59,908 nt of DNA from a virus (IMGVR_UViG_3300033141_003139:1-59908); one strand, 5' to 3'; counted from the stretch's first letter, positions 1 to 59,908 are shown. Program-made: numbers and translations. The notes: a model not told the origin generated them from the sequence alone.

Positions 1-114
1 GCTCATGCAGATGCGTTGGACGCTCATGATACGGCAATGGATACTGCGCATGCTTTACTCGCTACCGAAGAGAAGCAGGATGTTATCGACACCGTAGTAG
101 ACCGCATCGAGCAG
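1..114. repeat. Terminal direct repeat, left copy (circular overlap)
   Basis: The first 114 bases are identical to bases 59795-59908. The reading frame of the tail-fibre gene passes through the joint without a break. The simplest reading is an assembly overlap of a circular or circularly permuted genome, giving 59,794 unique bases. A true short terminal repeat is unlikely because the joint lies inside a gene. Confidence 0.93.
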
Positions 115-3743: not shown

Positions 3744-5518
3744 GTAATTTCAATCGTGCTGGCAACTTAGTCCTAAAATATGCCGTTCAGCGACAGAGTC
3801 TTATCAACCGGCTATTGGATCTGGCGTCTTCGATTAAGCATGGTATGGGAGCGGGTAAGGCAGTAGAAATACTAAGGTCTCCACTTGGAGCTAAGTTAGC
3901 CGCTGGTGTAGCAGGGGGAGCGGTAGGCATATCTTTAGGTAAAGCATTACAGCGTATAGAAGACGAAGAGGAAGCAATAAGAGAAAAGGAACGTGCTCGA
4001 ATACTTGCTGCTGTCAACATGCTTGAGTCATTAAATGCTCCTGTTGATTATATGACGATCGATACGATTGTCAGGTATGAAGGATGGAGAGAAGAACTTG
4101 CTAAGCGGACTCCTGAGTCGTTGTTAGCTGCATGGAATAAGTTCCGCGAAGAAACCGCTCGTACCACGGACGTGCCCAGGCAGGTTAGCGAAGCTCGAAA
4201 AAGCGTTGGTCAGGCTCTTTTGGATACTCTGGCTGCTCATGGATACATACCAGATAAAGAAGGCAGAATGAGACTATCCGAGGCTAAGCCAAAGGGAGTA
4301 GCATTTCCTGCTCCTCCGCCTGGGATGCGTATAAAAGCCGCAGAGGAACATATTACCAGTACATCGCATATCCCAATGGGCGAAGCCAGGTCCATAGAAG
4401 GCATGGAGGTAGGCGGAAAAATAGTTGTGCACCCAGCGAAGTTGACGGCCCCAAGATACGTAGCAAAGCCCAGGTATGACCTGGATGCCTTATCAAGGAT
4501 CCAGATGGAGAGAGCTGCGAAGGGCACATCTGTTACTGGTCTAGGTGCAGTTAGAAAAAGAATCGGTGAAATACATGAAGCAACCAGGGGTGGTCGTGAA
4601 ACACCACTCATGAAGTCTGTACTCAGTAAAACAATAGATGCTGCTGAGCATGCTCGCATCCAGAAGAAGCTCGCTACAAAAGGTTTTCGCTCGTTGACTG
4701 GTGTTGAAAAGCGAACTATTGGACGGCTTCTTACCAAAAGGGCAAAGCGTTGGGGTCTTCGTTTCAATGAACAAGCTCCTACCCAGCAGTACGCTTTTGA
4801 ACGCACCAAGCGAGCATGGCGTAAGGCCAAGAGAAAAGTAAAAGGAGCTTGGCGAACAGGGACAGCGTGGGGACGTAGGTTAGCCAGAAGGATTTCTTCT
4901 GCTGCCAGGGTTGCTACTGCTCAAAGTATGGTTACTGCACCAGGTGTTGCGTGGCAGGAAACAGGACGTTTCTTGGAACGTGAGGCTTCAGCAAGAATTC
5001 CTGCCCTGAGCGAATCCCATCCAAGGCTGGCTGCAATAGCTGCAATGGGTGTCAGGCAGGCGGCTGTTACAAGTAGGAGGCCTACCAGCGTTGATCCTCG
5101 ATTTAGAGAATATACCACGGAAGAACTACTAGTAGAAGCATCTGGTCTCAGCGGGGATTTGCGAAAGCTATTGAATGATTTTGCGAGTAACAAGGCTACA
5201 CAAAGTGGTTTTGAAAGCAAACTTCACAACGCAATAACTGAGAGCGAGCGAGCAGGGATACTCAATGAAAAGAAAAAGGTTGATACGACCAGGGGGCTTC
5301 TCAAGGAAGACATACTGTTTACTCGTAACAGGTTACGGGATATACGAGATGAACTAAGGTCACGTGGTACTCGTGTACCCAACGATATTAACGCTGTATA
5401 TGCTGAAGCCATATCTCTTGCCGAAGTACCACCATCACCAAGGCGACCAGTAAGACCTGCTCCTACCCTGGAAAAGCAATTGATAACAGAATTACTTGGT
5501 AACAGGTACTACAGATGA
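3740..5518 (+). CDS. Large Lys/Arg-rich helical protein (possible internal virion protein) 2
   Basis: 592 residues with an ATGA overlap to the preceding gene. An N-terminal hydrophobic Gly/Ala segment (residues about 40-70, KLAAGVAGGAVGISLGKAL) is followed by a charged helix, a central basic region with many Arg/Lys, and a C-terminal coiled-coil-like part rich in Glu and Arg. Composition matches its neighbours at 1887 and 5515. No known domain is visible. The run of three such genes suggests a complex, perhaps an ejection apparatus inside the capsid (inference). Codon use matches the surrounding virion genes. Confidence 0.65.
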   Translation: MSNFNRAGNLVLKYAVQRQSLINRLLDLASSIKHGMGAGKAVEILRSPLGAKLAAGVAGGAVGISLGKALQRIEDEEEAIREKERARILAAVNMLESLNAPVDYMTIDTIVRYEGWREELAKRTPESLLAAWNKFREETARTTDVPRQVSEARKSVGQALLDTLAAHGYIPDKEGRMRLSEAKPKGVAFPAPPPGMRIKAAEEHITSTSHIPMGEARSIEGMEVGGKIVVHPAKLTAPRYVAKPRYDLDALSRIQMERAAKGTSVTGLGAVRKRIGEIHEATRGGRETPLMKSVLSKTIDAAEHARIQKKLATKGFRSLTGVEKRTIGRLLTKRAKRWGLRFNEQAPTQQYAFERTKRAWRKAKRKVKGAWRTGTAWGRRLARRISSAARVATAQSMVTAPGVAWQETGRFLEREASARIPALSESHPRLAAIAAMGVRQAAVTSRRPTSVDPRFREYTTEELLVEASGLSGDLRKLLNDFASNKATQSGFESKLHNAITESERAGILNEKKKVDTTRGLLKEDILFTRNRLRDIRDELRSRGTRVPNDINAVYAEAISLAEVPPSPRRPVRPAPTLEKQLITELLGNRYYR

Positions 5519-24681: not shown

Positions 24682-26550
24682 ATGGCTACTGATAATTTCG
24701 ACCTCGAAGAATTTGTCGCTTTTGATACTGAAACCACCGGCCTTAAGATGTGGCATCCACCAGGCGTCAGCGTCTTGACTTACTCGTCGAAGGACTGCTG
24801 TGGGAACGTTACTATTTCAGATAAGACCGAGGGTCTTTCACCTGAAAACCTTACCAGGTTGGTTAAGGAGACAGCCAGTTACAAAATGCCATTTGCGCAT
24901 AACTTAAAGTATGATCTGAGCGTGCTGGATGCCAATGGCGTAGACATTTCCTTGCTGGATCATGCTAACTGTACCATGCTGATGGCTCACCTTAGCAATG
25001 AGCACGAAGCATCACTACAGCAGGAAACCTTGTATGTAAGAAAACTAGGGCTTCCAGTAGATGATGCCGACGAGATGGACGCCTGGTTGAAAGAGCATGG
25101 TCTTACCAAGGGCGAAATGGTGAAAGTACCACCCAGGATACGCAAAAAATATGCAGTAGGCGACGTGCATCGTTGCTTGAGCCTGGGTGTACATTATGCT
25201 CCAATAATCAACCGCCGTGATTACAAGACTGAAATGCAAGTACTTCGTATTCTCATCAAAATGGAAAAGCGTGGCATCTTGCTAGACATATCTAAAGTCG
25301 AGGCTATTAGACAAAAGACACAACGGCAACTGGCCCGTCTTATCAGGAAATGGGGTCTTATTGACGCTGGTCCTTACTGGAAGCTCGAACGAGAATTACT
25401 CCACGAGGGATATAGCATCAAGAGAGCACGACAGAAAGCCAGTAACAAGATGAAGAAAGCTATCAACGACGCCGGTGGTATCAACCTGGGAAGTTCAGCA
25501 CAGGTTGGCAGCGTATTGCTCCAGGAGGGTTTCGCCCTTGAAGAGCTTCACAAAACTGAGACTGGAGCCATATCTGGTGCTGGTAAACACATGAAAGAAC
25601 TGGCACGACAGGGCAGCAAGGTAGCAAAAGCACGTATTGTTTACATGCAGTTAGGTAAATTACTAGGCACTTACCTTGACCAGTTGGAAGATGCTGCTGA
25701 TTGTAACTCGGTTATACATACCAACTACAACCAGACCGTGACTGTTACGGGCAGGTTGAGCAGTGATAACCCTAACCTGCAAAACGTGGCTACAGATGAA
25801 GGTCCTTACAAGGGAGTTCGTGAGCTATTTATATGCAGGCCAGGACACGAGTTGTTTTTTATCGACTATCGTGGCCTCCAGCTTAGGATTGCTGCTCATT
25901 ATGCCAGGGACGAGATCTTCCAGGATATTGTGTCTAATCATGACGATGTTCATGGAGCCGTAGCTAAAATGGTCGGATTGACGGGTAAGCGTGGTCGACT
26001 CCAAGCTAAAGGCGTAGTATTCGGCACCCTGTTCGGACGAACCCCTTACGGCTTATGGAAAGACCCATCATTAAAGCTGAAAAGCCTGGATGATGCAGAA
26101 CGACTCAGGGCTAAAGTACTAGGCTTCATGCCAGGGCTTGAGCGTAAGATACGAGAACTCCAAGAGGAATATGCTGCTTGTGGACACATTGAAGATGATT
26201 TTGGCAGGTTATACAGGCCGCTTGAACTAAAGGACTTGCTCGTGAACCTCGTTCAGGGTACTGAGGCAAGTCTCGTAAAGCGTGCCATGGTAAAGACTTA
26301 TCCAGTTGTAACAGACTTCGGTGGTCATACAATCCTGCAAATACACGACGAAATAGTATTCGAGGTGCCGATGAAAGGAAAGCGTCTTGCCAGTCGCCGC
26401 CGTAAAATAGCGACTGCACTAGGAGCCGCTATGGTAGAAGATGCACGACACCTGGAAGTACCATTAAAGGTACAAGTAAAAGTTACACAAACAAATTGGG
26501 CAGAGGCTGCAACCATATTACAATTTGATAGCAACAAAGGAGTATGTTAA
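24682..26550 (+). CDS. polA: DNA polymerase A with 3'-5' exonuclease
   Basis: 622 residues. Exonuclease motifs: FDTETTG (residue about 15), HNLKYDLSVL (about 75) and YAVGDVHRCL (about 155). Polymerase motif A is DYRGLQLR at 395-402; motif B has Arg439, Lys443 and Phe447 (E. coli Phe762 position) with Phe451 in place of Tyr766. Motif C is HDE at 555-557. The steric-gate Glu of motif A (E. coli Glu710) is replaced by Gln400. It is the replicative polymerase of the phage, in an operon with Sak4, SSB and a P-loop ATPase. No 5'-nuclease domain is present. Confidence 0.93.
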   Translation: MATDNFDLEEFVAFDTETTGLKMWHPPGVSVLTYSSKDCCGNVTISDKTEGLSPENLTRLVKETASYKMPFAHNLKYDLSVLDANGVDISLLDHANCTMLMAHLSNEHEASLQQETLYVRKLGLPVDDADEMDAWLKEHGLTKGEMVKVPPRIRKKYAVGDVHRCLSLGVHYAPIINRRDYKTEMQVLRILIKMEKRGILLDISKVEAIRQKTQRQLARLIRKWGLIDAGPYWKLERELLHEGYSIKRARQKASNKMKKAINDAGGINLGSSAQVGSVLLQEGFALEELHKTETGAISGAGKHMKELARQGSKVAKARIVYMQLGKLLGTYLDQLEDAADCNSVIHTNYNQTVTVTGRLSSDNPNLQNVATDEGPYKGVRELFICRPGHELFFIDYRGLQLRIAAHYARDEIFQDIVSNHDDVHGAVAKMVGLTGKRGRLQAKGVVFGTLFGRTPYGLWKDPSLKLKSLDDAERLRAKVLGFMPGLERKIRELQEEYAACGHIEDDFGRLYRPLELKDLLVNLVQGTEASLVKRAMVKTYPVVTDFGGHTILQIHDEIVFEVPMKGKRLASRRRKIATALGAAMVEDARHLEVPLKVQVKVTQTNWAEAATILQFDSNKGVC

Positions 26551-30793: not shown

Positions 30794-31012
30794 ATGATTA
30801 CAGTATTATTCATCAATAATAGTGGTGGTGGTTTTGCAGACTATGTTACCATTGAGCCTAACGTGAGTGTCGGTGAATTCTTTATATCTCACATGGGTGG
30901 TAACCCCGCTGACTTCATGATTCGTGTTAATCGCCAGCCAGTGGCGAGAGATTACGTCTTGAAGGAGGGTGATCGTATCACCATTACCCCAACAAAAATA
31001 GATGGTGCTTAA
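30794..31012 (+). CDS. Ubiquitin-like beta-grasp protein (Ubl)
   Basis: 72 residues after AAGGAA. Pattern of a MoaD/ThiS/ubiquitin-type beta-grasp: strand ITVLFINN, strand [15 protein letters not shown] into a helix, then [27 protein letters not shown], the usual ThiS-like end. The C-terminus is KIDGA, so the last residues are Gly-Ala, not Gly-Gly. Removal of one residue would expose a Gly for adenylation by the E1. It is the first gene of a set with E2-RING, JAMM peptidase and E1; that context, not the sequence alone, makes it a protein modifier rather than a sulfur carrier. A terminator follows the gene. Confidence 0.83.
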
Positions 31013-31027
31013 GCAAGGATAACCATC

Positions 31028-31066
31028 GGGGGGCGTATCCTCAAGGGGGTACGCCTCCCTTTTTTA
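31028..31066 (+). terminator. Terminator or attenuator between Ubl and E2-RING genes
   Basis: GGGGGGCGTA (31028-31037) pairs with TACGCCTCCC (31050-31059) with one G-U; six T follow. It would let the Ubl mRNA exceed that of the enzymes, with read-through to the downstream genes. Confidence 0.82.
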
Positions 31067-31078
31067 TAGGGGTTATAG

Positions 31079-32131
31079 ATGGACAAACAATTACTTATGA
31101 TTTCTAAGCTGGTACATAAGGCGTTGATAAAACGCTATCTTGACAGGTACCGCATAATAGAATATTGTACAAACGAGATTGCTAACTTATCAAAACAGAT
31201 GGCTTGTAAAGGCCAACGTCACAAGCATTATTTAGCTCTCGAAGAGATTGACAACGCTACTAAAATTGCGTATGGCATTGCAAGTAGGACTAATACTTTA
31301 CAACGCTATACAGGGGATTTATCTTCAGCTTTATCCAGGCTGAAAGCCCCACGGGACCAACGTTATATCTACAAGGATTTAGTAGCCCTACAACAGGAGT
31401 TCGATGTTGTTGGTTACGATCATAACAGCCGGTGTTTAGGTGTTACTACTGAGCCTATAATTTTACATGGTATTAACCTGGGTCCGTTCAGCATTGAATT
31501 GATGATAGACGCCCTTCCCTGTCCTGATGATTCATGTTGTTGTAGAGTCGTAGCATTGTCCCCTAATCCTTCATCTTGTAATGAGTATGTAACCCATCCG
31601 CACGTAGAAGAAGAGACGATTTGCCTTGGCCAAGCGAAACAAGCTGTTGCTGAAGCGCTGGACGATAGTCGTATACTAGATGTATTCATGCTTATTGCAG
31701 GAGTACTACGCAACTATAACAGTGATTCTCCTTTCGTGAAACTGGAAAACTGGTATGGTGAACCCTGTTATAATTGCGGCGCTATTTGTGATAATAACTC
31801 TGAACTTCACACATGTGAATTTTGCGAGCATTTATTTTGCCCTGATTGTATAGGCACATGCGGATATTGTTCAGCGAGCGTATGTGTAAATTGCATGGAA
31901 TACTGCAACACTTGTGAAGAGTATTACTGTTCCAACTGCGTTTGTGTGTGTCCTCATTGTGAGAGACCTGTTTGTACTGCCTGTTTAGAAGGTGACGGCT
32001 GTGTATGCCAGGAGGAGTCTGAAAATGTTCAACAAGTGGCTTCAGTTCAAGAAAGAACCCAAGGTGTTGCCACCCAAGACGTTCAAGCAGCAAGTGGACA
32101 CTGGACGATCCAGTATCGTCCTGCAACCTAA
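31079..32131 (+). CDS. E2 (UBC-like)-RING fusion protein
   Basis: 350 residues. Residues 1-95 are helical. Residues about 100-225 have UBC/E2 features: a strand part around LGPFSIELMIDALPCPDD, PNPSS at 162, the flap-like HPH at 173-175, and Cys182 in ICLG nine residues on, where the E2 active Cys follows HPN. Helices DVFMLIAGVLRNYNSDSPF follow, close to the E2 pattern VLLSIQSLL..N..DP. Residues 229-310 hold over 20 Cys in repeated CxxC pairs with one CPHCERPVC, a RING-like/treble-clef region. So one chain would join Ubl-thioester transfer (E2) and substrate or E2 activation (E3). Confidence 0.78.
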   Translation: MDKQLLMISKLVHKALIKRYLDRYRIIEYCTNEIANLSKQMACKGQRHKHYLALEEIDNATKIAYGIASRTNTLQRYTGDLSSALSRLKAPRDQRYIYKDLVALQQEFDVVGYDHNSRCLGVTTEPIILHGINLGPFSIELMIDALPCPDDSCCCRVVALSPNPSSCNEYVTHPHVEEETICLGQAKQAVAEALDDSRILDVFMLIAGVLRNYNSDSPFVKLENWYGEPCYNCGAICDNNSELHTCEFCEHLFCPDCIGTCGYCSASVCVNCMEYCNTCEEYYCSNCVCVCPHCERPVCTACLEGDGCVCQEESENVQQVASVQERTQGVATQDVQAASGHWTIQYRPAT

Positions 32132-32141
32132 AGGAGCACAC

Positions 32142-32942
32142 ATGAAGAAAATGAACGATACTATCCTGCGGTTTACACCTACGGCCTGGGCCAAGCTCTT
32201 GTTTTTCAGGGATCTCGGCAAAACAGAAATAGGTGGCTTTGGTATAACGAAACCAGATGACCTTCTGTTGGTCACCGATTTTGTTACTGTTAAACAGAAT
32301 GTTAGCATGGCCAGTGTAAAATTTGATGATACAGCTGTTGCTGACTTTTTTGAAGACCAGGTGGCTGCCGGTCGTCATCCAAGAGAATTCGCACGTATAT
32401 GGGTGCACACCCATCCGATGATGAGTCCTTCGCCCAGTGGAGTAGACGAGGAAACTTTCGAGCGTGTGTTTGGTAGTTGTGATTGGGCTATTATGTTCAT
32501 AATAAGCTCTACTTCTAAAACCTACTGCAAGTTGTATCTCAACGTTGGGCTGAGTATTGCTATTGACATCCCAGTTGAGGTCAGCTATACAAATGAATTC
32601 GGCCCTAGTGATTTTGCCGCCTGGAAAGCAGAGTACGAGGCTAATATATGCAAGGAAGTCTACAGCATCAGCAAGAAACATACTAGTAAAGTATTCAAGG
32701 ACGGCATTTGGAGTGAGGAACCAGGATCACTTGACGATGAAATTTTTGATGATGATGACGATGATGATGATGATGATACAATTGACGTTGCCGAAGGGTT
32801 GGTTATCAATGAACAATACGATGATGAACCTCCCATGGAATGGGCTGAAGAACTAGAGGCAATGACCGAAGAAGAACGAGCTGAATTCTTGCAGGATCTA
32901 TATGATTATCCAGACGAATTAAGGAGTAGCAAATGGATGTAA
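32142..32942 (+). CDS. JAMM/JAB metallopeptidase (Ubl-processing or deconjugating)
   Basis: 266 residues; ATG 32142 is five bases after AAGGAG, which itself overlaps the E2-RING stop. Complete JAMM signature: Glu29 (TEIGGF), His89-x-His91 (HTHP), Ser99 and Asp102. This is the zinc peptidase fold of deubiquitinases such as Rpn11. The C-terminus has a run of ten Asp (from GAT repeats near 32750) and an acidic helix. It may trim the Ubl end (Gly-Ala) and release Ubl from targets. It overlaps the E1 gene by ten bases, so the two are coupled. Confidence 0.88.
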   Translation: MKKMNDTILRFTPTAWAKLLFFRDLGKTEIGGFGITKPDDLLLVTDFVTVKQNVSMASVKFDDTAVADFFEDQVAAGRHPREFARIWVHTHPMMSPSPSGVDEETFERVFGSCDWAIMFIISSTSKTYCKLYLNVGLSIAIDIPVEVSYTNEFGPSDFAAWKAEYEANICKEVYSISKKHTSKVFKDGIWSEEPGSLDDEIFDDDDDDDDDDTIDVAEGLVINEQYDDEPPMEWAEELEAMTEEERAEFLQDLYDYPDELRSSKWM

Positions 32943-33598
32943 TAGCAGATGAACGTTATAGCAGGCAAGCTGACATAATCCCAGCTGAAAAACTGGATGA
33001 AATAAAGCCCACTGTTATAGGGGTTGGAGCCATAGGCAGGCAGGTTGCATTGCAACTTGCAGCAATCGGAGTGAGTAGTCTCCAATTGATTGACCATGAC
33101 ACAGTAGAAGAAAGCAATATAGCCAGCCAGGGTTTTTATGAGACGGATATGTCCTGCTGGAAGGTTGATGCTGTAAAGCATACATGTACAAGCATCAATT
33201 GCCTGCTGCAAGTGGAAGCGAAGCATGAGCGTTTCAAACGCAGTCATACCGTGGGCAACATTGTATTTTGTTGTGTTGATGATATACAGACACGTAAGAT
33301 GGTAAATGATGTTGTCCACGCTGACTTATTTATTGATGGCCGCATGTCAGCTGAAGTGCTCAGGGTTCTAACTGTATGGGACTTCAAGACGAATGATTAC
33401 TACAAGGGAACGTTATTTACTTCAGAAGAGGCTTATGCTGGTTCATGCACGGCCAAGACGACTATTTACTGTGCAAATATAGCAGCGGCCTTGATGGTAT
33501 CCCAGTTGACCAAGTGGTTGCGAAGGATACCACTTGAACGAGATTTTACATTGAATATACTAACGAATGAACTTACGCTGGGAAATCCAGAAGGATAA
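32933..33598 (+). CDS. E1-like Ubl-activating enzyme (ThiF/MoeB fold)
   Basis: 221 residues; ATG 32933 seven bases after AAGGAG. Rossmann motif GVGAIG at 30-35, acidic residues Asp54/Asp56 ending the second strand (LIDHDTVEESN), Asn62, Gln66, Lys77, and Asp116 in CVDD. Candidate catalytic Cys172 in GSCTAKT, placed as in other E1s. The Arg of the MoeB-type NL.RQ motif is Ser here. It would adenylate the Ubl C-terminus and pass it to Cys182 of the E2-RING protein. Last gene of the cassette. Confidence 0.88.
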   Translation: MDVIADERYSRQADIIPAEKLDEIKPTVIGVGAIGRQVALQLAAIGVSSLQLIDHDTVEESNIASQGFYETDMSCWKVDAVKHTCTSINCLLQVEAKHERFKRSHTVGNIVFCCVDDIQTRKMVNDVVHADLFIDGRMSAEVLRVLTVWDFKTNDYYKGTLFTSEEAYAGSCTAKTTIYCANIAAALMVSQLTKWLRRIPLERDFTLNILTNELTLGNPEG

Positions 33599-34042: not shown

Positions 34043-34315
34043 ATGAATTACTTTGCGTGGTATGGCACTGTATTGGGCAATGACGGGCATACTCTTGGCC
34101 ACACGGTCAACGGTCAAGTTGTCCGAGCATCGGCCCGCATCCCGCTGGGTCGCTGGCTGTGGCTCGCTGAATCACGACGATCATGGCGTAACATGACAAT
34201 GAAGGAAACCGTTGAATGCGTGGGGGAATATTATCGGTGGACTCATCCTGAGATTGATTGGGAACATTACGATTGGGAGCAATACAGTAAGAAACAGAAG
34301 GAGAAGTATCATTAA
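34043..34315 (+). CDS. Hypothetical protein
   Basis: 90 residues behind AAGGAAG. Rich in Trp, Tyr and His; ends KKQKEKYH. No family recognised. Overlaps the likely start of the nuclease gene at 34311. Confidence 0.58.
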   Translation: MNYFAWYGTVLGNDGHTLGHTVNGQVVRASARIPLGRWLWLAESRRSWRNMTMKETVECVGEYYRWTHPEIDWEHYDWEQYSKKQKEKYH

Positions 34316-35114
34316 CATTAACCTGAACGTCCTCAAAGCTGAACCAGCTAAAGAATACTATGCCAAGGCAGGCGAATATCTCACCAGCCCACAATTGCTG
34401 GATTTTATGAAGTGTCCTTGGCTGTACCACAAGAAGCAGCTCGGTCTAATAGCTGAAGAGTACACGTCCGTACTACTGATCGATAGTGCCGCTCGCTGTC
34501 GGATTCTCGAAGGTCGGGACGCCTATGAGGCACAGTTCGCTTTCGATGGCCCCATCGATCCCAAGACGAACAAACCCTTCGATTCGAAAATAAAGGCCTT
34601 CGCTGAGTGGGCACATGCCCAAGGTAAACCCGTGCTGCCGCACGATCAGGCCGAACTCATCGAGCAGATGGCTTCCGGCGTCGCCATGAACGACGAGGCT
34701 GTTGACCTGCTGCTGTATGGCCGAGCTGAAGGCGTTGTTCGTGCTGAGTATTGTGGTGTGCCGTGTCAGATTCGCATTGATTGGATGCATCCACAGCGAG
34801 GTATTGTGGATTTCAAGACTTGCGATGACCTGACGTGGTTCGAGGCGGATGCCAGGCGTTACGGCTACCACTGGCAGATGGCGTTCTACCGTGCTATCCT
34901 CGCCCAACCTCTCGACGGTTTACTGGTGCCGGTTCATCTCGTCGCAGTCGAGAAGAAAGAACCCTTCCGCTGTGGTGTGTGGAGTGTCAGCGATGACACG
35001 CTGGCCATCGCCCAACGCGAGAACGAGGCGGCGATCCGTCGACTGGTGAATTGTCGTAAGCAAGATCATTGGCCAACCGGCTACGAGGAGGTCCGCATCC
35101 TCGACATTGCATGA
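34311..35114 (+). CDS. Second PD-(D/E)XK nuclease, RecE/DUF3799-like
   Basis: About 267 residues. The coding frame begins with no ATG/GTG/TTG near the strong AAGGAG site at 34298; an ATT at 34311, seven bases on, is the best start. The product begins INLNVLKAEPAKEYYAKAG. Pattern of RecE-like nucleases: LDFMKCPWLYHKKQLG, RAEGVVRAEYCGVPCQIRIDWMHPQRGIVDFKTC (catalytic Asp and Asp-x-Lys) and HWQMAFYRAIL. Downstream lies a DUF669 protein, a common exonuclease-SSB pair. No iron-sulfur cysteines. Confidence 0.76.
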   Translation: MNINLNVLKAEPAKEYYAKAGEYLTSPQLLDFMKCPWLYHKKQLGLIAEEYTSVLLIDSAARCRILEGRDAYEAQFAFDGPIDPKTNKPFDSKIKAFAEWAHAQGKPVLPHDQAELIEQMASGVAMNDEAVDLLLYGRAEGVVRAEYCGVPCQIRIDWMHPQRGIVDFKTCDDLTWFEADARRYGYHWQMAFYRAILAQPLDGLLVPVHLVAVEKKEPFRCGVWSVSDDTLAIAQRENEAAIRRLVNCRKQDHWPTGYEEVRILDIA

Positions 35115-35163
35115 ATCTTTGAACATGGTTAATATTAAAACTCTAACTTCGAGGAGATTGACA

Positions 35164-35865
35164 ATGGCTAACCTGAATGGATTTGACGCACGCACTGTTG
35201 AACCTGCTGTTGCTATTGATCTTGAACCGATCCCTGCTGGCAAGTATATTGCTGCGATCACCGAAAGCGAGATGAAACCTACCAAGAGCGGATCAGGCAG
35301 TTATCTCCAACTGTCCTTCACCATCCTGAAAGGCGAGTACAAGAACCGTGTCCTCGGGGCGCGGCTGAACCTTTATAGTCCTAATGCCACGGTAGTCGAG
35401 AACGCACGAGCGGAACTGTCGGCGATCTGTCACGCGGTCGGTGTATTGACGCCGAAGGACTCAGTAGAACTTCATAACTTGCCGCTAATAATCACGGTCA
35501 AGATTGTAAAGCGTTTCGATACAGGTGACTTGGTCAATGAGATTATAGGCTACGCCGAAAGGAAAGTTGCGGTCCATCAGATTCAGCGGACTTTTCCTGC
35601 TGATGACGTCGAAAAGGTTGATACAGAGAGTGTATGCACTTGTAAGATGCTTCCCTCTGATTATATGATCGATAAGATGCAAGCTGACGGATATGTTTTG
35701 ATGAATGCGTTTGTTGATCGCTTCGGTCTCTATGATTTGACTTTTCATCGTTGGGATAACGGTGATATTATTTCAGTAGACAGTGCTGAGACGTGGCGAG
35801 ATGCAATCTGTAATATATATGCAAAATTCTTGAAAAGTAGGAGTACCACTGATGGCAGAGAATGA
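35164..35865 (+). CDS. DUF669-like ssDNA-binding protein with unrelated C-terminal part
   Basis: 233 residues from ATG 35164 behind GAGGAG. Residues 1-125 match DUF669 (IPAGKYIAAITESEMKPTKSG, LQLSFTILKGEYKNRVL, then VENARAELSAICHAVGV). From about residue 135 the sequence and base composition change: the DNA becomes AT-rich, and the protein holds CTCKMLPSDY and a mixed alpha/beta part. The gene thus looks chimeric. It pairs with the nuclease upstream, as in phage recombination modules. Confidence 0.68.
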   Translation: MANLNGFDARTVEPAVAIDLEPIPAGKYIAAITESEMKPTKSGSGSYLQLSFTILKGEYKNRVLGARLNLYSPNATVVENARAELSAICHAVGVLTPKDSVELHNLPLIITVKIVKRFDTGDLVNEIIGYAERKVAVHQIQRTFPADDVEKVDTESVCTCKMLPSDYMIDKMQADGYVLMNAFVDRFGLYDLTFHRWDNGDIISVDSAETWRDAICNIYAKFLKSRSTTDGRE

Positions 35866-47435: not shown

Positions 47436-48875
47436 ATGCCGGTTTTACTACGGACACATGGCGGCGAAGACGGCAAGATGGACCCGCGCACTGCACGTGC
47501 CATGAACATGCGGGTTCTTGAGGAGCGTTATGCTGGGATCGATAGACTATTTTCTACCTACATGATGGGCATTGTTGCTGATCCTGACTTTGCGAAGCGT
47601 AAAGACCCCAGGATTTATCAGCGTATGCTACGTGATCCAGTCATATATTCAGCGCTTCTCGTCAGGCAATTAACTACGGCAGCGTTACCATGGGACGTTG
47701 AGTCCGTTGATGAAAGTGAAGAAGCAAACCAGCTGGCACTTGGTTACAAGCAGCGTCTCTCACAGTGCCGCAGGCTCAGTGAAACGTTTCAGAACATGCT
47801 TGAGGCCATACTCTACGGCTTGTCTGTCATCGAGTTGATGTGGAAATATACTAAGATCGGATACGTCGTAGAAAGAACTTACCCTGTAATGAAGGATCGC
47901 TTTACGTTCACAGTCAACGGGGAGTTGCGCCTTAAAACGCCAAGTTATCCTATCCGTGGAGTATCTCTTCCCTTTGGTAAGTTCATCCCGCATACACATG
48001 ATATACAAGATGCCAGCTTCGACAAGCCGGATGATGCTGGCTATTGTTTTTACGGGATGGGACTGGCAGATCGACTTTACCATATCTTCTACTTCAAGAT
48101 GACAGCGATACGTATGTGGCTGAAGTTTCTTGAAAGGCATGGTTCGCCTTTTAAGATAGCGTATGTACGTGAAGGCGGTACTGCATACGACAGCATGAAA
48201 GAAATCCTACTGGCATTACAGAACGATACCTCGATTGCTATCCCTGGAATGAAAGGCGAAGACGTAGAAATAGAAACAAGCCGGAGCGGTGGTGGTGGAG
48301 CCATGACGTTCGCCGGTTTTGTCAGCGACTATTGTGATGAGTTGATTACACGGGCGATCCTCGGCCAGACGATGGTAACATCAGTACCCAAGGTGGGAAG
48401 CTATGCTTTGGGTCAGGTACAAGAATCGGTCCTCTCTCGTATCGTCAACTTTGATAAGAGCGGTATCGAAGACACATGGAACTATTATCATGTATCGTAC
48501 GACATGAGGTTTAATGTACCTAATGCTCCTGAAGAGTTGTATCCAAAGTTGACGTTCAGGTACAGGGAACCTCTCGACGTTGAGATGTACTTGAGAGTTG
48601 CCGACGGGGTTCGCAGCATGGGCTTACCCATTTCCGAGCAGGACGTTCGTGAAGCTACTGGGTTCCGTACGCCGACGAAAGGCGAAGCGATTATAGCACC
48701 GATAATGCCGGAGCTGATGGGCGAAGGACCTCCAGAAACGTTAGCAAAAGAACCTGATACCAAGGAGGAAAAAGACAAGCAGAATGAAGAGGTTTCCAAG
48801 CGTATGTTGAACTTGCAGAAAGTAATACGTTATGCACTGGAGTCCCAGCATCCCAGAGTACCTGTGTTTAGATGA
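47436..48875 (+). CDS. Portal protein, DUF935/Mu gp29-like
   Basis: 479 residues behind AAAGGAG. Family pattern: MNMRVLEERYAGIDRLFSTY, DPVIYSALLVRQLTTAALPWDVES, LEAILYGLSVIELMWKY, and KMTAIRMWLKFLERHGSPFKIAYV. The dodecameric portal is the DNA gate of the capsid and docks the terminase. The order terminase-portal fits head operons; the capsid genes lie 19 kb further on across the circular joint, which is an unusually large gap. Confidence 0.86.
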   Translation: MPVLLRTHGGEDGKMDPRTARAMNMRVLEERYAGIDRLFSTYMMGIVADPDFAKRKDPRIYQRMLRDPVIYSALLVRQLTTAALPWDVESVDESEEANQLALGYKQRLSQCRRLSETFQNMLEAILYGLSVIELMWKYTKIGYVVERTYPVMKDRFTFTVNGELRLKTPSYPIRGVSLPFGKFIPHTHDIQDASFDKPDDAGYCFYGMGLADRLYHIFYFKMTAIRMWLKFLERHGSPFKIAYVREGGTAYDSMKEILLALQNDTSIAIPGMKGEDVEIETSRSGGGGAMTFAGFVSDYCDELITRAILGQTMVTSVPKVGSYALGQVQESVLSRIVNFDKSGIEDTWNYYHVSYDMRFNVPNAPEELYPKLTFRYREPLDVEMYLRVADGVRSMGLPISEQDVREATGFRTPTKGEAIIAPIMPELMGEGPPETLAKEPDTKEEKDKQNEEVSKRMLNLQKVIRYALESQHPRVPVFR

Positions 48876-48891
48876 TTACAAGGGAGAAAGT

Positions 48892-50244
48892 ATGTTTGTA
48901 AAGAATAAGTTGTTTGGAACTGAGCCGTGTATAATACATGCTAATGGTGGTAAACACCTGGACGATCCTACCTGGGATACTATCCTGGCCAGTTACTTTG
49001 GACAAGTCGGCGAGCTGAAAGATGGACTGGACCCATCTATTGCTGTTATTCTATGTAACAGCAAGAAAGAAAAAGGGCTAACCGAATTGTCACTTGACCG
49101 CCTGGGTATCAAGTACATGGTACTCGGTAGGGGTGTACCTGGCTGGATTAACTTGAACAAGATACCGCTTACCAGGGAAGCATTGGCTGCATTGAGTGTA
49201 TGTCCAGGCATCAAGTATGTGCTAGCATTAGATGCTCATGACGTAGTAGTGTTGCCAGGCATAGTAAACATCCTGGACGTTTGGGAAGAGCAAGGCAGCC
49301 CGAAGATGTTATTTCAAGCGGAACGAAATCCCTATCCTCCATGCACCGAACTACGGAAACATGAAGAGAAAATAACACCTCCAGGAACGCCTTACCGATA
49401 CTTGAACTCCGGTGTCTGGTTCGGAGAAATCGGTTATACAAGGGAATTCTTTGAAAAAGCCTTGAGAACCAAGCCTATCCCTGGTTTCTTACAGAGTGAC
49501 CAGGGAATTTACAGGCAGTTACGACTTGAAGACCAGTTCAACGTCAACATAGACCATTTTTGTACTATGTCACAGAGTATTTACTTGGTACCCAATGGTG
49601 AGTTGGAGTGCCATAGTACCAGGCACGATGATGCTACTTCGATAATACTTGGTGGCCACCCTGAAATACCGATGCTGCCTATTACCAGGGAGGCCCTGTT
49701 GGAGTTGTTGCCGGAGGGAGGTGATACAGTAGAAATAGGCGTTGAAAGAGGAGTGTTCTCAGATGAAATACTAAGGCGTAATAAGCCTAAGAGTTTGCTG
49801 CTTATTGATTCATGGCAGGAAAGTAATTACAACTTTGTGATTGGTAAATACAAGGACAATGCCAAGGTAACAGTACATCGTGGCGATTCAGTCGAGTCAG
49901 CTGGTGTTTTTGCAGGCAAGCAGTTTGACTGGGTTATGGTTGATGCTAATCACCTGGAAGACCGCGTATACAACGATATTAACGCCTGGCTCCCACTGGT
50001 AAAAAACGGTGGATACATGTTATGCCATGACTATACACGCTACGGTTTGTATGGAGTGATTGAGGCTGTAGACAGGGTACTATCTGAAAACGATTGCCTT
50101 GAGCCAATAGGTAATACTATTGACACGTTCGCTACGATTGTCATGAGAAAGGTTATACCTGGTACCAAGGTAGAACCATGTTCAATCAGGGAGAAATTAA
50201 ATGAGCAAACCAACGCTGACAATGGCTGTTTTGAACTGGAATAG
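48892..50244 (+). CDS. Glycosyltransferase-methyltransferase fusion
   Basis: 450 residues from ATG 48892 behind AAGGGAG. Residues 1-260 are GT-A-like: KYVLALDAHDVVVLPG (DxD-like), FQAERNPYPP, RYLNSGVWFGEIGYTREFFEKA and DQGIYRQL, the style of PLOD/collagen-type galactosyltransferases. From about residue 280 a class-I SAM methyltransferase follows: TVEIGVERGVFSDEIL, LLLIDSW, and FDWVMVDANHLEDRVYNDINAWLPLVKNGGYMLCHDY. One protein could thus add a sugar and methylate it. It overlaps the next gene. Confidence 0.8.
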   Translation: MFVKNKLFGTEPCIIHANGGKHLDDPTWDTILASYFGQVGELKDGLDPSIAVILCNSKKEKGLTELSLDRLGIKYMVLGRGVPGWINLNKIPLTREALAALSVCPGIKYVLALDAHDVVVLPGIVNILDVWEEQGSPKMLFQAERNPYPPCTELRKHEEKITPPGTPYRYLNSGVWFGEIGYTREFFEKALRTKPIPGFLQSDQGIYRQLRLEDQFNVNIDHFCTMSQSIYLVPNGELECHSTRHDDATSIILGGHPEIPMLPITREALLELLPEGGDTVEIGVERGVFSDEILRRNKPKSLLLIDSWQESNYNFVIGKYKDNAKVTVHRGDSVESAGVFAGKQFDWVMVDANHLEDRVYNDINAWLPLVKNGGYMLCHDYTRYGLYGVIEAVDRVLSENDCLEPIGNTIDTFATIVMRKVIPGTKVEPCSIREKLNEQTNADNGCFELE

Positions 50245-50896
50245 GCCTAAGCAGATAGACTTCGTATTGTCTACGCTGGAACAGCAAACGCTAAAGCCTG
50301 TTATTTTTGTATGGAATAACGGACAACCAAGACTATTTCCTACTGCTGACTGGGTTGTCCAGTCGAATCAGAACATAGCGTGTGTCGCCAGCTGGATGAT
50401 GCTGACACGAGCGGAAACAGACTATATTGGAACCATTGGGGATGACGTACTTGTATGTGATACCCAGGTACTGGAACATGCCGTTGATTTTCTCAGCAGG
50501 CAGGATGATCCAGATATGATAGTAGGAGCAGCCGGTGTCAGGTTAAAAGCAGGTAAGACCTATGGAGATTCTGATCATATTCATTGTTGTAGTAATTTTG
50601 GCTTTGTCAAGGGAGAAATGGCCGCTCCAGTTGACGTTGTTAAGGGATGGTTCAGTATCATGCGGCGTGATGTATTAGCCAAGGTGCCGCGCATGATAGA
50701 TAGAGGCTTCATCGAAGATGACATTTTTGTGAGCGGGCATGCTGCTCGTGGTGAAAAAGGCAAGCATAGGGTACTGGGAATGTTACGTGGCCGATGCAAA
50801 GATCTTTTTGATACAAGTGATGTTGCTCTTTGTAGTCGAAAAGATCATTTGTTACGTCGGGAATTGGCCCGTCGTAAATATTGTTTTGGTTTGTAG
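50201..50896 (+). CDS. Family-2-like glycosyltransferase
   Basis: 231 residues, overlapping the previous gene by 44 bases, behind AGGGAG. GT-A start TLTMAVLNWNRPKQIDFVLSTLEQQ and the metal-binding region TDYIGTIGDDVLVCD. A second acidic site is GFIEDDIFVSGHAARG. Nucleotide-sugar donor and acceptor are not evident. Confidence 0.78.
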   Translation: MSKPTLTMAVLNWNRPKQIDFVLSTLEQQTLKPVIFVWNNGQPRLFPTADWVVQSNQNIACVASWMMLTRAETDYIGTIGDDVLVCDTQVLEHAVDFLSRQDDPDMIVGAAGVRLKAGKTYGDSDHIHCCSNFGFVKGEMAAPVDVVKGWFSIMRRDVLAKVPRMIDRGFIEDDIFVSGHAARGEKGKHRVLGMLRGRCKDLFDTSDVALCSRKDHLLRRELARRKYCFGL

Positions 50897-50916
50897 TTGA
50901 AAAAAGGGAGAAGATA

Positions 50917-51792
50917 ATGAGTAAAGCACAAGAAGACGAAGGTCGTATTGACAGCGTTGAACTCGTAGAACCAGAAAGCAATTTCGGCGAGCAAGCCTCA
51001 ATCGAAACGCAAGAAATACACCTGGGCGAAAAAGTCATACCTGGAATTGCACCTGACAAATGCGGGCCTGTAATGATTGGGTATGGTTGGCATAGGGGTG
51101 TTAATGGAGAGTTCCCCTGGTTCTATAGCAACTGGCTGGAGTTTCTGCAACGGCAAGGTTTCACGATTGCACGAGCCAGGGTAAACGGTACCTACCTGGC
51201 CGATGGCAGGAATTCGCTTGCTATGGCAGCGAGACGAGCAGGTGTCAAGTGGCTCTGCATGGTAGATGATGACATGCTTGCTCCTGATAATATATTGTAC
51301 CGGTTGCTTACACTTGCCAGCTCACACGAGATACCCGTGCTGGGTACTAATTACGTTAGTCACAGCCAGTTCGGTCCTAAGCCTGTTACCCAAATCGTCG
51401 AGGGAGAATTTGCGAGTGAAGCTCAATGCAGGATTGAGATTGCGAAAGCTCGCAAGGGAGAGTTGTCCAAGGTTTACTCTATTGGCACTGGTATTACTGT
51501 TTTCAATATTGAAGCGTTGACGGCTTTGAATGAGTACTCCAGCAATGAAACTGGATGGTTCGATGAGTATCCAGGGATAGGTGAGGATTTATCCTTTTGT
51601 AAACGTTGTCATAAGGCTGGCCTGGACATATACTGTGACTTTGGCTTGCCATTAGATGTAATGCATGCTGGTACTTACTTTTACAGCATGGCTGACTACA
51701 TGGGGTATCCTCCGATGTGGAAGCGTACGAAGCAGATGGTACCAGAATACTTGCGGGACTTAAGGTTGCGAGGGGTGTTAGCTAAGGACTAG
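50917..51792 (+). CDS. Glycosyltransferase-like protein (GT-A)
   Basis: 291 residues from ATG 50917 behind AAGGGAG. An acidic N-terminal tail of 50 residues precedes a GT-A domain: VMIGYGWHRGVNGEFPWFY, AARRAGVKWLCMVDDDMLAPDNILYRLL (DDD metal site), and YSIGTGITVFNIEAL, then YPGIGEDLSFCKRCHKAG. Third glycosyltransferase in a row, in a virion operon. It may glycosylate capsid proteins, DNA or host glycans. Confidence 0.76.
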   Translation: MSKAQEDEGRIDSVELVEPESNFGEQASIETQEIHLGEKVIPGIAPDKCGPVMIGYGWHRGVNGEFPWFYSNWLEFLQRQGFTIARARVNGTYLADGRNSLAMAARRAGVKWLCMVDDDMLAPDNILYRLLTLASSHEIPVLGTNYVSHSQFGPKPVTQIVEGEFASEAQCRIEIAKARKGELSKVYSIGTGITVFNIEALTALNEYSSNETGWFDEYPGIGEDLSFCKRCHKAGLDIYCDFGLPLDVMHAGTYFYSMADYMGYPPMWKRTKQMVPEYLRDLRLRGVLAKD

Positions 51793-58084: not shown

Positions 58085-59908
58085 ATGGGTTGTCAGAGCG
58101 AAGTAACTATCGGCGATAACCTGACGTTCACGGTAACAACGCACGACCCTGATACTGGCGTGCTGACCGATGCCGATGCTGTGCCGTCCTACCGCGTCTA
58201 CGAAGACGAAACAGGCACGCCGATTCTGACCGGCTCGATGGCGAAGTTGGACGGTGACAACACTACCGGATATTATTCCGAGCAGATTGCATGTACCTCA
58301 GGGAACGGTTTCGAAAGCGGTAAGAGCTATAACATATACATCTCGGCCACGGTTGGTGGCGATACGGGTGGATTGAGCTATGGATTTCGCACACTGGCCC
58401 GTGATGCGGATGACCTGGCAACTGAGGCGAAGCAGGATGTTATCGACGGGATTGTCGATGACTTGAAGGCTGCCCTGACCGTCGTCAAGGGCACTATTCA
58501 AAGCGAGAACATAACAAGTACGACGTTGCAGATTGCGAACGGCGAAGATACTGACGACGCTTACAACGGCATGACCGTAGTTTTCGAGGATACTGTACTT
58601 GGCTGGGTTGCACGTCCAATCAGCGATTATGCTGACAATGGCGTGATAACATGGGTGCTGGAGACCGATGGGTTGCCGAAAGATGGTGGAACGGCGTATA
58701 TCATACCTGTAGCATCTGATGTCATGCGTGGAACGGATGATGCAGCAACAGCCAACAAACTCCTAGCGTACGTGCAGCTACTGGCTCGTTCGGATGAGGG
58801 CATTGCGACCGATAATGCCACTGAACTATCAGAAATCAACGCTGACGGCGGACACGGAGAAGGCGACTTCGCGAATACGGTTGACAGCATAGAAGCACTG
58901 GCTGATGCCCTGGATGCCGGTCTGCCGCGTTATACGGCAGCAAGTGCATCCCAGGTTGACAACGGAAGCGGCACGGGAGACTATGAGGACACCGCAGCCG
59001 ACGATGGTAGCTACTGGCAGATAGCAGGAGCGGACAAAGGCGAAGAGGATGACTATGGTATGGATGCCACGCTCACCTTTTCGCTGGGCACGACGACTAA
59101 GCCGTCTTTCGTCCACATCAATGCGTATGAGACGTTCAATGCAGGGCCAGTTCTGGTATGGGCATATAACTACGTGACGAGCAGCTGGGATGCGATTGCC
59201 GACAGTAACACGGGCATCAGCGGGAATTCAGAGCGAAACTACACGTATATCCTGCTGGCTGATTACCATCAGCAGACAAGCGACGGCGAGGTGAAAATCA
59301 GGTTCACATGCGTAGATGAGTCGACGAATAAGTACCTGTTTCTCGACCAGGTGTTGATAGGCGGCACACGGGTATCCGGCCTTACGGCGGCAGCCATCGC
59401 TCGTGCGGTGCACGAATACAATCTTGACTATATCCGGCATACTCCTGACGAGATGATAGCAGGGCACTTGCTGAAGCGTGGCATAGCATTGGGCACGACT
59501 GTGGCAGCGGCGGATACGAATTCGACTTTCACGCTGGCTGACGGTATCGAAAGCGACGACGCTTACAAGGACATGCGCATCGAAGTGCGAGACGAATCTT
59601 CAGAAACACGTGCTATTGAAACACGGAGGATCACGAGTTATACGAGCGGCAGAGTCGTAGTAGTCAGTCCGGCCTTTACGTTTGTACCGGCAGTGGGCGA
59701 TTCGGTGCACATTCACAACCAGTTCGATGATGGGCCTTCGCAGACTTCGATGGATATGGCCCATGCTTTACTGGCTACGAGTTCGGCTCTTAGTGCTCAT
59801 GCAGATGCGTTGGACGCTCATGATACGGCAATGGATACTGCGCATGCTTTACTCGCTACCGAAGAGAAGCAGGATGTTATCGACACCGTAGTAGACCGCA
59901 TCGAGCAG
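58085..59908 (+). CDS. Tail fibre / receptor-binding protein, N-terminal part (continues at 115)
   Basis: 608 codons open to the window end; it continues in frame at base 115 to 1287 in the circular genome. The start MGCQSEVTIGDNLTFTVTTHDPDTG and an Ig-like region (residues about 1-110) probably attach to the baseplate. Helical segments EAKQDVIDGIVDDLKA (about 123) and, near the joint, EEKQDVIDTVVDRIEQ are two copies of one motif, each near a repeated beta unit (NGEDTDDAYNGM and DGIESDDAYKDM). Tandem SALSAHADALDAHDTAMD helices suggest a trimeric coiled-coil shaft. The beta-helix follows after the joint. Confidence 0.82.
   Translation, partial: MGCQSEVTIGDNLTFTVTTHDPDTGVLTDADAVPSYRVYEDETGTPILTGSMAKLDGDNTTGYYSEQIACTSGNGFESGKSYNIYISATVGGDTGGLSYGFRTLARDADDLATEAKQDVIDGIVDDLKAALTVVKGTIQSENITSTTLQIANGEDTDDAYNGMTVVFEDTVLGWVARPISDYADNGVITWVLETDGLPKDGGTAYIIPVASDVMRGTDDAATANKLLAYVQLLARSDEGIATDNATELSEINADGGHGEGDFANTVDSIEALADALDAGLPRYTAASASQVDNGSGTGDYEDTAADDGSYWQIAGADKGEEDDYGMDATLTFSLGTTTKPSFVHINAYETFNAGPVLVWAYNYVTSSWDAIADSNTGISGNSERNYTYILLADYHQQTSDGEVKIRFTCVDESTNKYLFLDQVLIGGTRVSGLTAAAIARAVHEYNLDYIRHTPDEMIAGHLLKRGIALGTTVAAADTNSTFTLADGIESDDAYKDMRIEVRDESSETRAIETRRITSYTSGRVVVVSPAFTFVPAVGDSVHIHNQFDDGPSQTSMDMAHALLATSSALSAHADALDAHDTAMDTAHALLATEEKQDVIDTVVDRIEQ
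59795..59908. repeat. Terminal direct repeat, right copy (circular overlap)
   Basis: Exact copy of bases 1-114. Joining the two ends fuses the open frame that starts at 58085 to the one that ends at 1287. Confidence 0.93.

Follow-up and report, generated by a model that had tools for sequence, protein, structure and literature searches.

Can a bacterial virus own a complete ubiquitin-type pathway? To date, ubiquitin-like (Ubl) conjugation in bacteria has mostly been connected with anti-phage defence, a view that would be reversed if many phages maintained a full set of modifier, E1, E2 and protease. RING-bearing prokaryotic ubiquitin-like operons exist. Prokaryotic operons combining Ubl, E1, E2 and JAB proteins are known as types 6a-6e on mobile elements (PMC1779556) and act in anti-phage defence, according to work cited in PMC12687455; the anti-phage Bil and Bub operons unite a Ubl, an E1, an E2 and a specific protease (PMC12687455). 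Caldiarchaeum subterraneum encodes an E1, an E2, a small RING protein and ubiquitin together (PMC5654768).

The question is raised here by four adjacent genes in the viral record IMGVR_UViG_3300033141_003139, whose 59,908 b constitute the window, that is, the whole stretch of DNA analysed. A sequence-only reading had described them as a phage-owned cassette of a Ubl, an E2-RING fusion, a JAMM peptidase and an E1. Sequence comparison and structural models make it highly probable that the phage carries a working Ubl conjugation and deconjugation cassette. Beyond that first reading, we report that the cassette belongs to a family widespread in phages and shared with mobile islands of Planctomycetota, that crAss-like phages carry a related E1 and JAMM block, and that terminator-like hairpins recur between the Ubl and E2 genes.

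Genome and location of the cassette

An exact direct repeat of 114 bp is found at both ends of the window (1-114 and 59795-59908); since this repeat is terminal, the genome is complete, at about 59.8 kb. Its virion and replication genes are collected with those of the cassette in Table 1. The cassette (30794-33598, + strand) sits between the DNA polymerase gene and the RecE-type exonuclease and single-strand-binding genes, and the flanking genes examined are of replication, recombination or unknown type. A capsid search gave a weak indication of a planctomycete host, with matches in 5 of 294 genomes and a best identity of 33%. Elsewhere, methyltransferase/PLOD-type and glycosyltransferase genes (48832-51792) adjoin the portal gene and possibly serve capsid or DNA decoration.

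Table 1. Features of the cassette and of the phage genome around it
Feature	Position	Strand	Description
Family A DNA polymerase	24682-26550		upstream of the cassette
Ubl modifier	30794-31012	+	72 aa, ending TPTKIDG71-A; predicted precursor, trimmed after Gly71
Intrinsic-terminator-like hairpin	31028-31059	+	14 pairs (9 GC) followed by TTTTTT; between the Ubl and E2 genes
E2-like protein	31079-32131	+	350 aa; AlphaFold pLDDT 89.0; N-terminal helices 3-86, UBC-like ~94-225, Cys-rich zinc module ~230-315
JAMM peptidase	32142-32942	+	266 aa, ATG start at 32142; E29, H89, H91, S99, D102 (HTHPMMSPSPSGVD)
E1/ThiF-fold adenylyltransferase	32933-33598	+	221 aa; Pfam ThiF 7.4e-23, above cut-off; GVGAIG 30-35, D54, D56, N62, Q66, K77, D116, candidate catalytic C172
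RecE/exonuclease VIII-like gene	34212-35114		downstream of the cassette; phrog_412, 3e-38
Single-strand-binding-type gene	35107-35865		downstream of the cassette
Large terminase	in the phage genome		phrog_2, 7e-36
Mu-type portal	in the phage genome		PF06074, 3e-63
Major head protein	in the phage genome		phrog_371, 1e-34
Head protease	in the phage genome		family search

The four genes and their products

The open reading frames lie exactly where the sequence-only reading had placed them, in the order Ubl, E2-Cys-rich, JAMM, E1, and plausible Shine-Dalgarno sequences precede the Ubl, JAMM and E1 genes. Residue conservation was counted across deduplicated homologs (108-129 sequences per protein).

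The E1 gene certainly encodes a ThiF-type E1, with the motifs of the fold and a predicted catalytic C172 that, like K77 and D116, is present in 121 of 121 homologs; its nearest named families are ThiF and MoeB. Nearly all members have S, T, P or A at residue 65 in place of the Arg found in the standard NLxRQ motif, a point against the conjugation reading, with D, N, Q and K retained.

For the JAMM peptidase, the Shine-Dalgarno sequence AAAGGAG stands before ATG 32142; the listed frame begins at an earlier GTG. Numbered from this ATG, the five signature residues are precisely those of the sequence-only reading, which was equally exact for GVGAIG and C172 of the E1. The predicted peptidase displays the JAMM/MPN+ isopeptidase motif E...HxHx7Sx2D, with H89, S99 and D102 in all 129 homologs, E29 in 128 and H91 in 128 plus one in which the position is masked. 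As a single sequence it reached Pfam Prok-JAB at 7.5e-4, below cut-off, and the best matches of the family profile were the Caldiarchaeum Rpn11-like protein (3.5e-6) and proteasomal Rpn11 (2e-3). A tblastn search of phages with the JAMM protein gave no match.

The AlphaFold model of the Ubl (pLDDT 92.9) adopts a beta-beta-alpha-beta-beta, beta-grasp arrangement and carries the C-terminal Gly of ubiquitin-like modifiers. Its best PDB match is Caldiarchaeum ubiquitin (TMq 0.70), and SUMO, SAMP1 and a ubiquitin-like protein of Bacteroides fragilis are also among the top matches; the sulfur carriers TtuB and MoaD-like proteins are likewise among the fold matches. Pfam gave ThiS (3e-3) and TGS (0.03), both below cut-off, and tblastn against phages returned only noise (Vibrio ICP1, E ~1). 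Gly71 is the sole invariant residue in a 30-row homolog alignment and is present in all 108 rows with a letter at that position. It is usually followed by one to four variable residues, as in IDG-A (this phage), IDG-ASR (L009) and LEG-AFAA (L010). An invariant Gly with a short variable tail is the pattern of a precursor trimmed to the Gly.

Fused tandem Ubl genes of two to three units occur in L019 (2375-3112), L022 (1426-2091) and L023, an organization that recalls polyubiquitin. The two fused units of L022 retain KVEG-A at the inner junction, and in the triple Ubl of L019 the Gly is found in the last unit only.

Terminator-like hairpins resembling the one behind this Ubl gene were detected in 13 of 32 viral Ubl-E2 gaps (0.3 expected in shuffles) and in 14 of 50 planctomycete gaps (0.2 expected), the control consisting of base shuffles that preserve base composition only. 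The hairpin probably lets the modifier exceed its enzymes in amount.

The E2-like protein is the most divergent from known families: Pfam, PHROGs, NCBIfam and PADLOC gave no meaningful match for the gene, nor did Pfam for any of 37 members of its family. After residue 86, the model shows a helix, strands, the H173-P-H...C182 loop and helices 186-195 and 199-211, which is the order of a UBC domain. C182, P174 and G184 are found in 111 of 111 homologs and H173 in 110; all four are invariant across 37 aligned rows. Similarity to known E2s is weak: Foldseek, dominated for the whole chain by the N-terminal helices, matched human UBE2H (E 0.43, prob 0.66, TMt 0.47), and hhalign of the family against three human E2s aligned HPHV...C on HPN...C with a probability of 26%. 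In the C-terminal part, 12 or more Cys are invariant and most of them form CxxC pairs; Foldseek gave weak matches to FYVE, LIM and RING domains, and Pfam no RING match. We retain the E2 half of the proposed E2-RING fusion as E2-like, on the order of UBC elements around HPH...C, and replace the RING half by a Cys-rich zinc module of uncertain type, RING-like at best.

Three tandem E2-zinc genes were observed in the cassette of one phage contig (L010, 660-4151), as in L027 and L052. The third E2 of L010 reads HPNINFQGNVCLG and resembles a eukaryotic E2 active site.

Distribution in viruses and Planctomycetota

Single-protein searches of viral contigs with the E2 or the E1 gave no relatives. The family was opened by a degenerate DNA pattern for HPHV-x4-[IVM]CLG, which retrieved three IMG/VR contigs, each carrying a complete cassette. 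Searches with E1 and JAMM alignments extended the set to 51 loci on 41 distinct viral contigs, including these three; an E1 alignment including crAss rows was too divergent for scanning. With profiles built from the cassette, Ubl-E2-JAMM-E1 was recovered on one strand in 39 of these 41 further contigs, so the search for this gene order in other phages, which the sequence-only reading had suggested, was positive. The two exceptions are L037, where the contig breaks off within the cassette, and L061, whose E2 did not reach threshold.

When 84,980 species genomes of bacteria and archaea were scanned with the JAMM alignment, 90 matches emerged; nearly all of the 80 listed come from records titled Planctomycetota or its subgroups. 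The complete ordered cassette is present on the same strand at 61 of these 80 listed loci, and many of the others are cut by contig ends. Only 10 of 294 planctomycete genomes harbor a cassette, one chromosome having four copies. Conservation of order, strand and catalytic residues in relatives excludes a chance assembly and, by sequence criteria, the four genes form one conserved system. Carriage by a phage is confirmed by the genome and its replication/recombination block; a system private to one phage is not, given about 40 IMG/VR contigs and the Planctomycetota islands.

The planctomycete chromosomal copies adjoin recombinases and transposase-like genes and often genes for DUF1257, TOPRIM-like, AAA ATPase and ~320-aa proteins, absent from this phage genome. 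Such recombinase and transposase-like neighbours and the patchy islands suggest a mobile system common to Planctomycetota and phages. A whole planctomycete island was encountered on a viral contig only in L021/L044. In a quick JAMM+E1 tree, the copy of this phage falls beside a clade of planctomycete chromosomal copies with modest support (SH-aLRT 84 and 86), and the majority of phage copies lie on deeper branches of greater diversity.

Several observations accompany these loci. The islands run DUF1257, TOPRIM-like, AAA ATPase, ~320-aa protein and finally the Ubl cassette, and have recombinase or transposase-like genes in the vicinity (L100, L115, L118, L122, L146-L149, L151-L153). AAA ATPases are encoded close to some phage cassettes as well as in islands, which is no more than a lead towards degradation of tagged proteins. 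Repeated short peptides resembling translated CRISPR arrays (VSIHAPVMGATW, ASMGPLFFRAED) appear within ~10 kb of chromosomal cassettes in L150 (~1300-2500) and L152 (~4570-4890). On the large phage contigs L045/L047, L056 and L060, two whole or partial cassettes adjoin each other; the E1 of the second is of a different type (GAGATG/GVGATG, ...MCGARTVVG), and a separate small Ubl-like gene belongs to it, for instance at 1844-2050 of L060 (...RKVKGN).

E1 matches extend to crAss-like phages, Flavobacterium phages and Xanthomonas/Erwinia jumbo phages. In crAss001, cr111_1, DAC15, bajarodcaudo virus and FpV4, the E1 gene follows a JAMM gene (HSHNxMxxFFSGTD) near primase and UDG genes, and the positions of Ubl and E2, ahead of the JAMM gene, are taken by two further genes. 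Homology of the crAss-like Ubl candidate was rejected as unproven (hhalign 1.7%). PhiXhv-12 encodes, close together, an E1, an 892-aa protein (HPHM...CLG, Cys-rich tail) and a small protein with the C-terminus ...KASGG, and no JAMM was recognized there.

Proposed pathway and purpose

From the genes, their order, their conservation and the predicted folds, we infer each biochemical step, the targets and the purpose as follows. The JAMM peptidase would cut the Ubl precursor behind Gly71, so that Ala72 is lost here and one to four residues in most relatives. The E1 would adenylate Gly71 and take the Ubl as a thioester on Cys172, from which it would be transferred to Cys182 of the E2. The N-terminal helices and fused zinc module of the E2 may act as a built-in E3-like adaptor that picks the targets, on a lysine of which the Ubl would be joined, and the JAMM peptidase could take it off again. 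The hairpin behind the Ubl gene would keep the modifier in excess over the enzymes. Location in a replication/recombination block, here and in several other phages, suggests that the system acts early, and this genomic place points to host takeover, DNA replication or counter-defence as the likely business of the modified proteins. The roles envisaged by the sequence-only reading, namely degradation of host RNAP or defence proteins, tagging of virions and competition with a host Ubl system, are speculative.

A role in the phage's own cycle is favoured by this block and by the neighbours of several other phage copies, which include helicase, SbcC/SMC-like and DnaB-like genes. The bacterial islands instead favour cargo defence, in which the phage would shield its host against rival phages, as bacteria are protected by their Bil, Bub and CBASS Ubl systems; we hold this to be possible, on the doubtful side. 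This alternative concerns the purpose and is compatible with the conjugation chemistry. Close homologs do lie in patchy, often multi-copy planctomycete islands (up to four per chromosome in the 10/294 genomes), beside recombinases and AAA ATPase, DUF1257 and TOPRIM-like genes, a setting typical of the spread of defence systems. However, the cassette occupies no cargo locus: in this genome, as in several unrelated phages, it belongs to the replication/recombination block. The island partner genes are missing from this phage, and in many crAss-like phage genomes the related E1+JAMM block is retained next to primase and UDG.

Developing the reading of a phage's own modification system further, we tentatively propose that phages of several groups, among them planctomycete, Xanthomonas/Erwinia jumbo and crAss-like phages, might run their own ubiquitin/SUMO-like modification, of which the planctomycete islands would be domesticated or re-mobilized viral forms. 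The tagged proteins would in that case, no less tentatively, be those of replication/recombination or host takeover, and tagging a normal part of infection.

The chemistry itself could differ if the genes encoded a sulfur-carrier system (ThiS/MoaD-ThiF/MoeB) for a cofactor or a modified base, the refutation that the sequence-only reading had itself foreseen for the case of partner thiamine or cofactor genes nearby. The ThiF/MoeB affinity of the E1, the weak ThiS score of the Ubl and its fold matches to TtuB and MoaD-like proteins fit this explanation, but an E2-like gene with an invariant Cys and a JAMM peptidase are present throughout, residues extend beyond the terminal Gly, and family search revealed no thiamine, molybdopterin, thiazole or thiolase gene among the flanking genes examined, making it very improbable. 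Membership of a PRTRC operon, which we take to be the Iyer/Aravind type 6d, is scarcely credible and was rejected: the E1 does score with PRTRC_ThiF, but far under the cut-off (34.8 versus 144.75 bits), and there is no PRTRC A, B or C match. The four activities, Ubl, JAB, E1 and E2, are shared with that type, but a zinc module of the E2 is not listed for it (PMC1779556).

Comparison with known systems

The Planctomycetota chromosomal islands (L062-L141) resemble the phage cassette in the four genes, their order, the catalytic residues and the ...TPxKIEG(A) tail of the Ubl, with up to ~60% identity in JAMM+E1; unlike the phage, many of these copies have the DUF1257, TOPRIM-like, AAA ATPase and ~320-aa genes upstream.

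The crAss-like phages and FpV4 (gp79-gp76 in crAss001) share homologous adjacent JAMM and E1 genes in a replication block, and the gene in the E2 place bears an HSHV...CxG motif. The link between the two E2s is weak (hhalign 34%), and their sequences are suggestive of a relationship. In contrast to the cassette, no Cys-rich module was seen, and the genes are annotated as thiamine and metalloprotease genes. The loci of crAss001 (gp79-gp76, L007) and FpV4 (L004), as well as L002, L003 and L006, probably encode a mis-annotated Ubl-type system. The related blocks of crAss001, DAC15, FpV4 and PhiXhv-12 lie in cultured phages and are therefore testable now.

The operons described by Iyer, Burroughs and Aravind follow the same logic of Ubl, E1, E2 and JAB on mobile elements, whereas their type 6d is listed without RING (PMC1779556). 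The open literature searched contained no account of a family of phages with complete cassettes. The cassette E1 is similar to the solved BubCD; the cassette departs from Bil and Bub in that the E2 is fused to a Cys-rich zinc module and N-terminal helices, E1 and JAMM are separate genes, it is borne by a phage, and no curated family matched above cut-off.

Finally, the Caldiarchaeum system provides the closest solved structures for both the Ubl fold and the JAMM/Rpn11 protein. It differs in a Ubl identity of ~14% and in belonging to an archaeon, not a bacterial virus. A Ubl and a JAMM peptidase of Planctomycetota and their viruses that stand nearest to Caldiarchaeum among solved structures may thus bear on the origin of eukaryotic ubiquitin.
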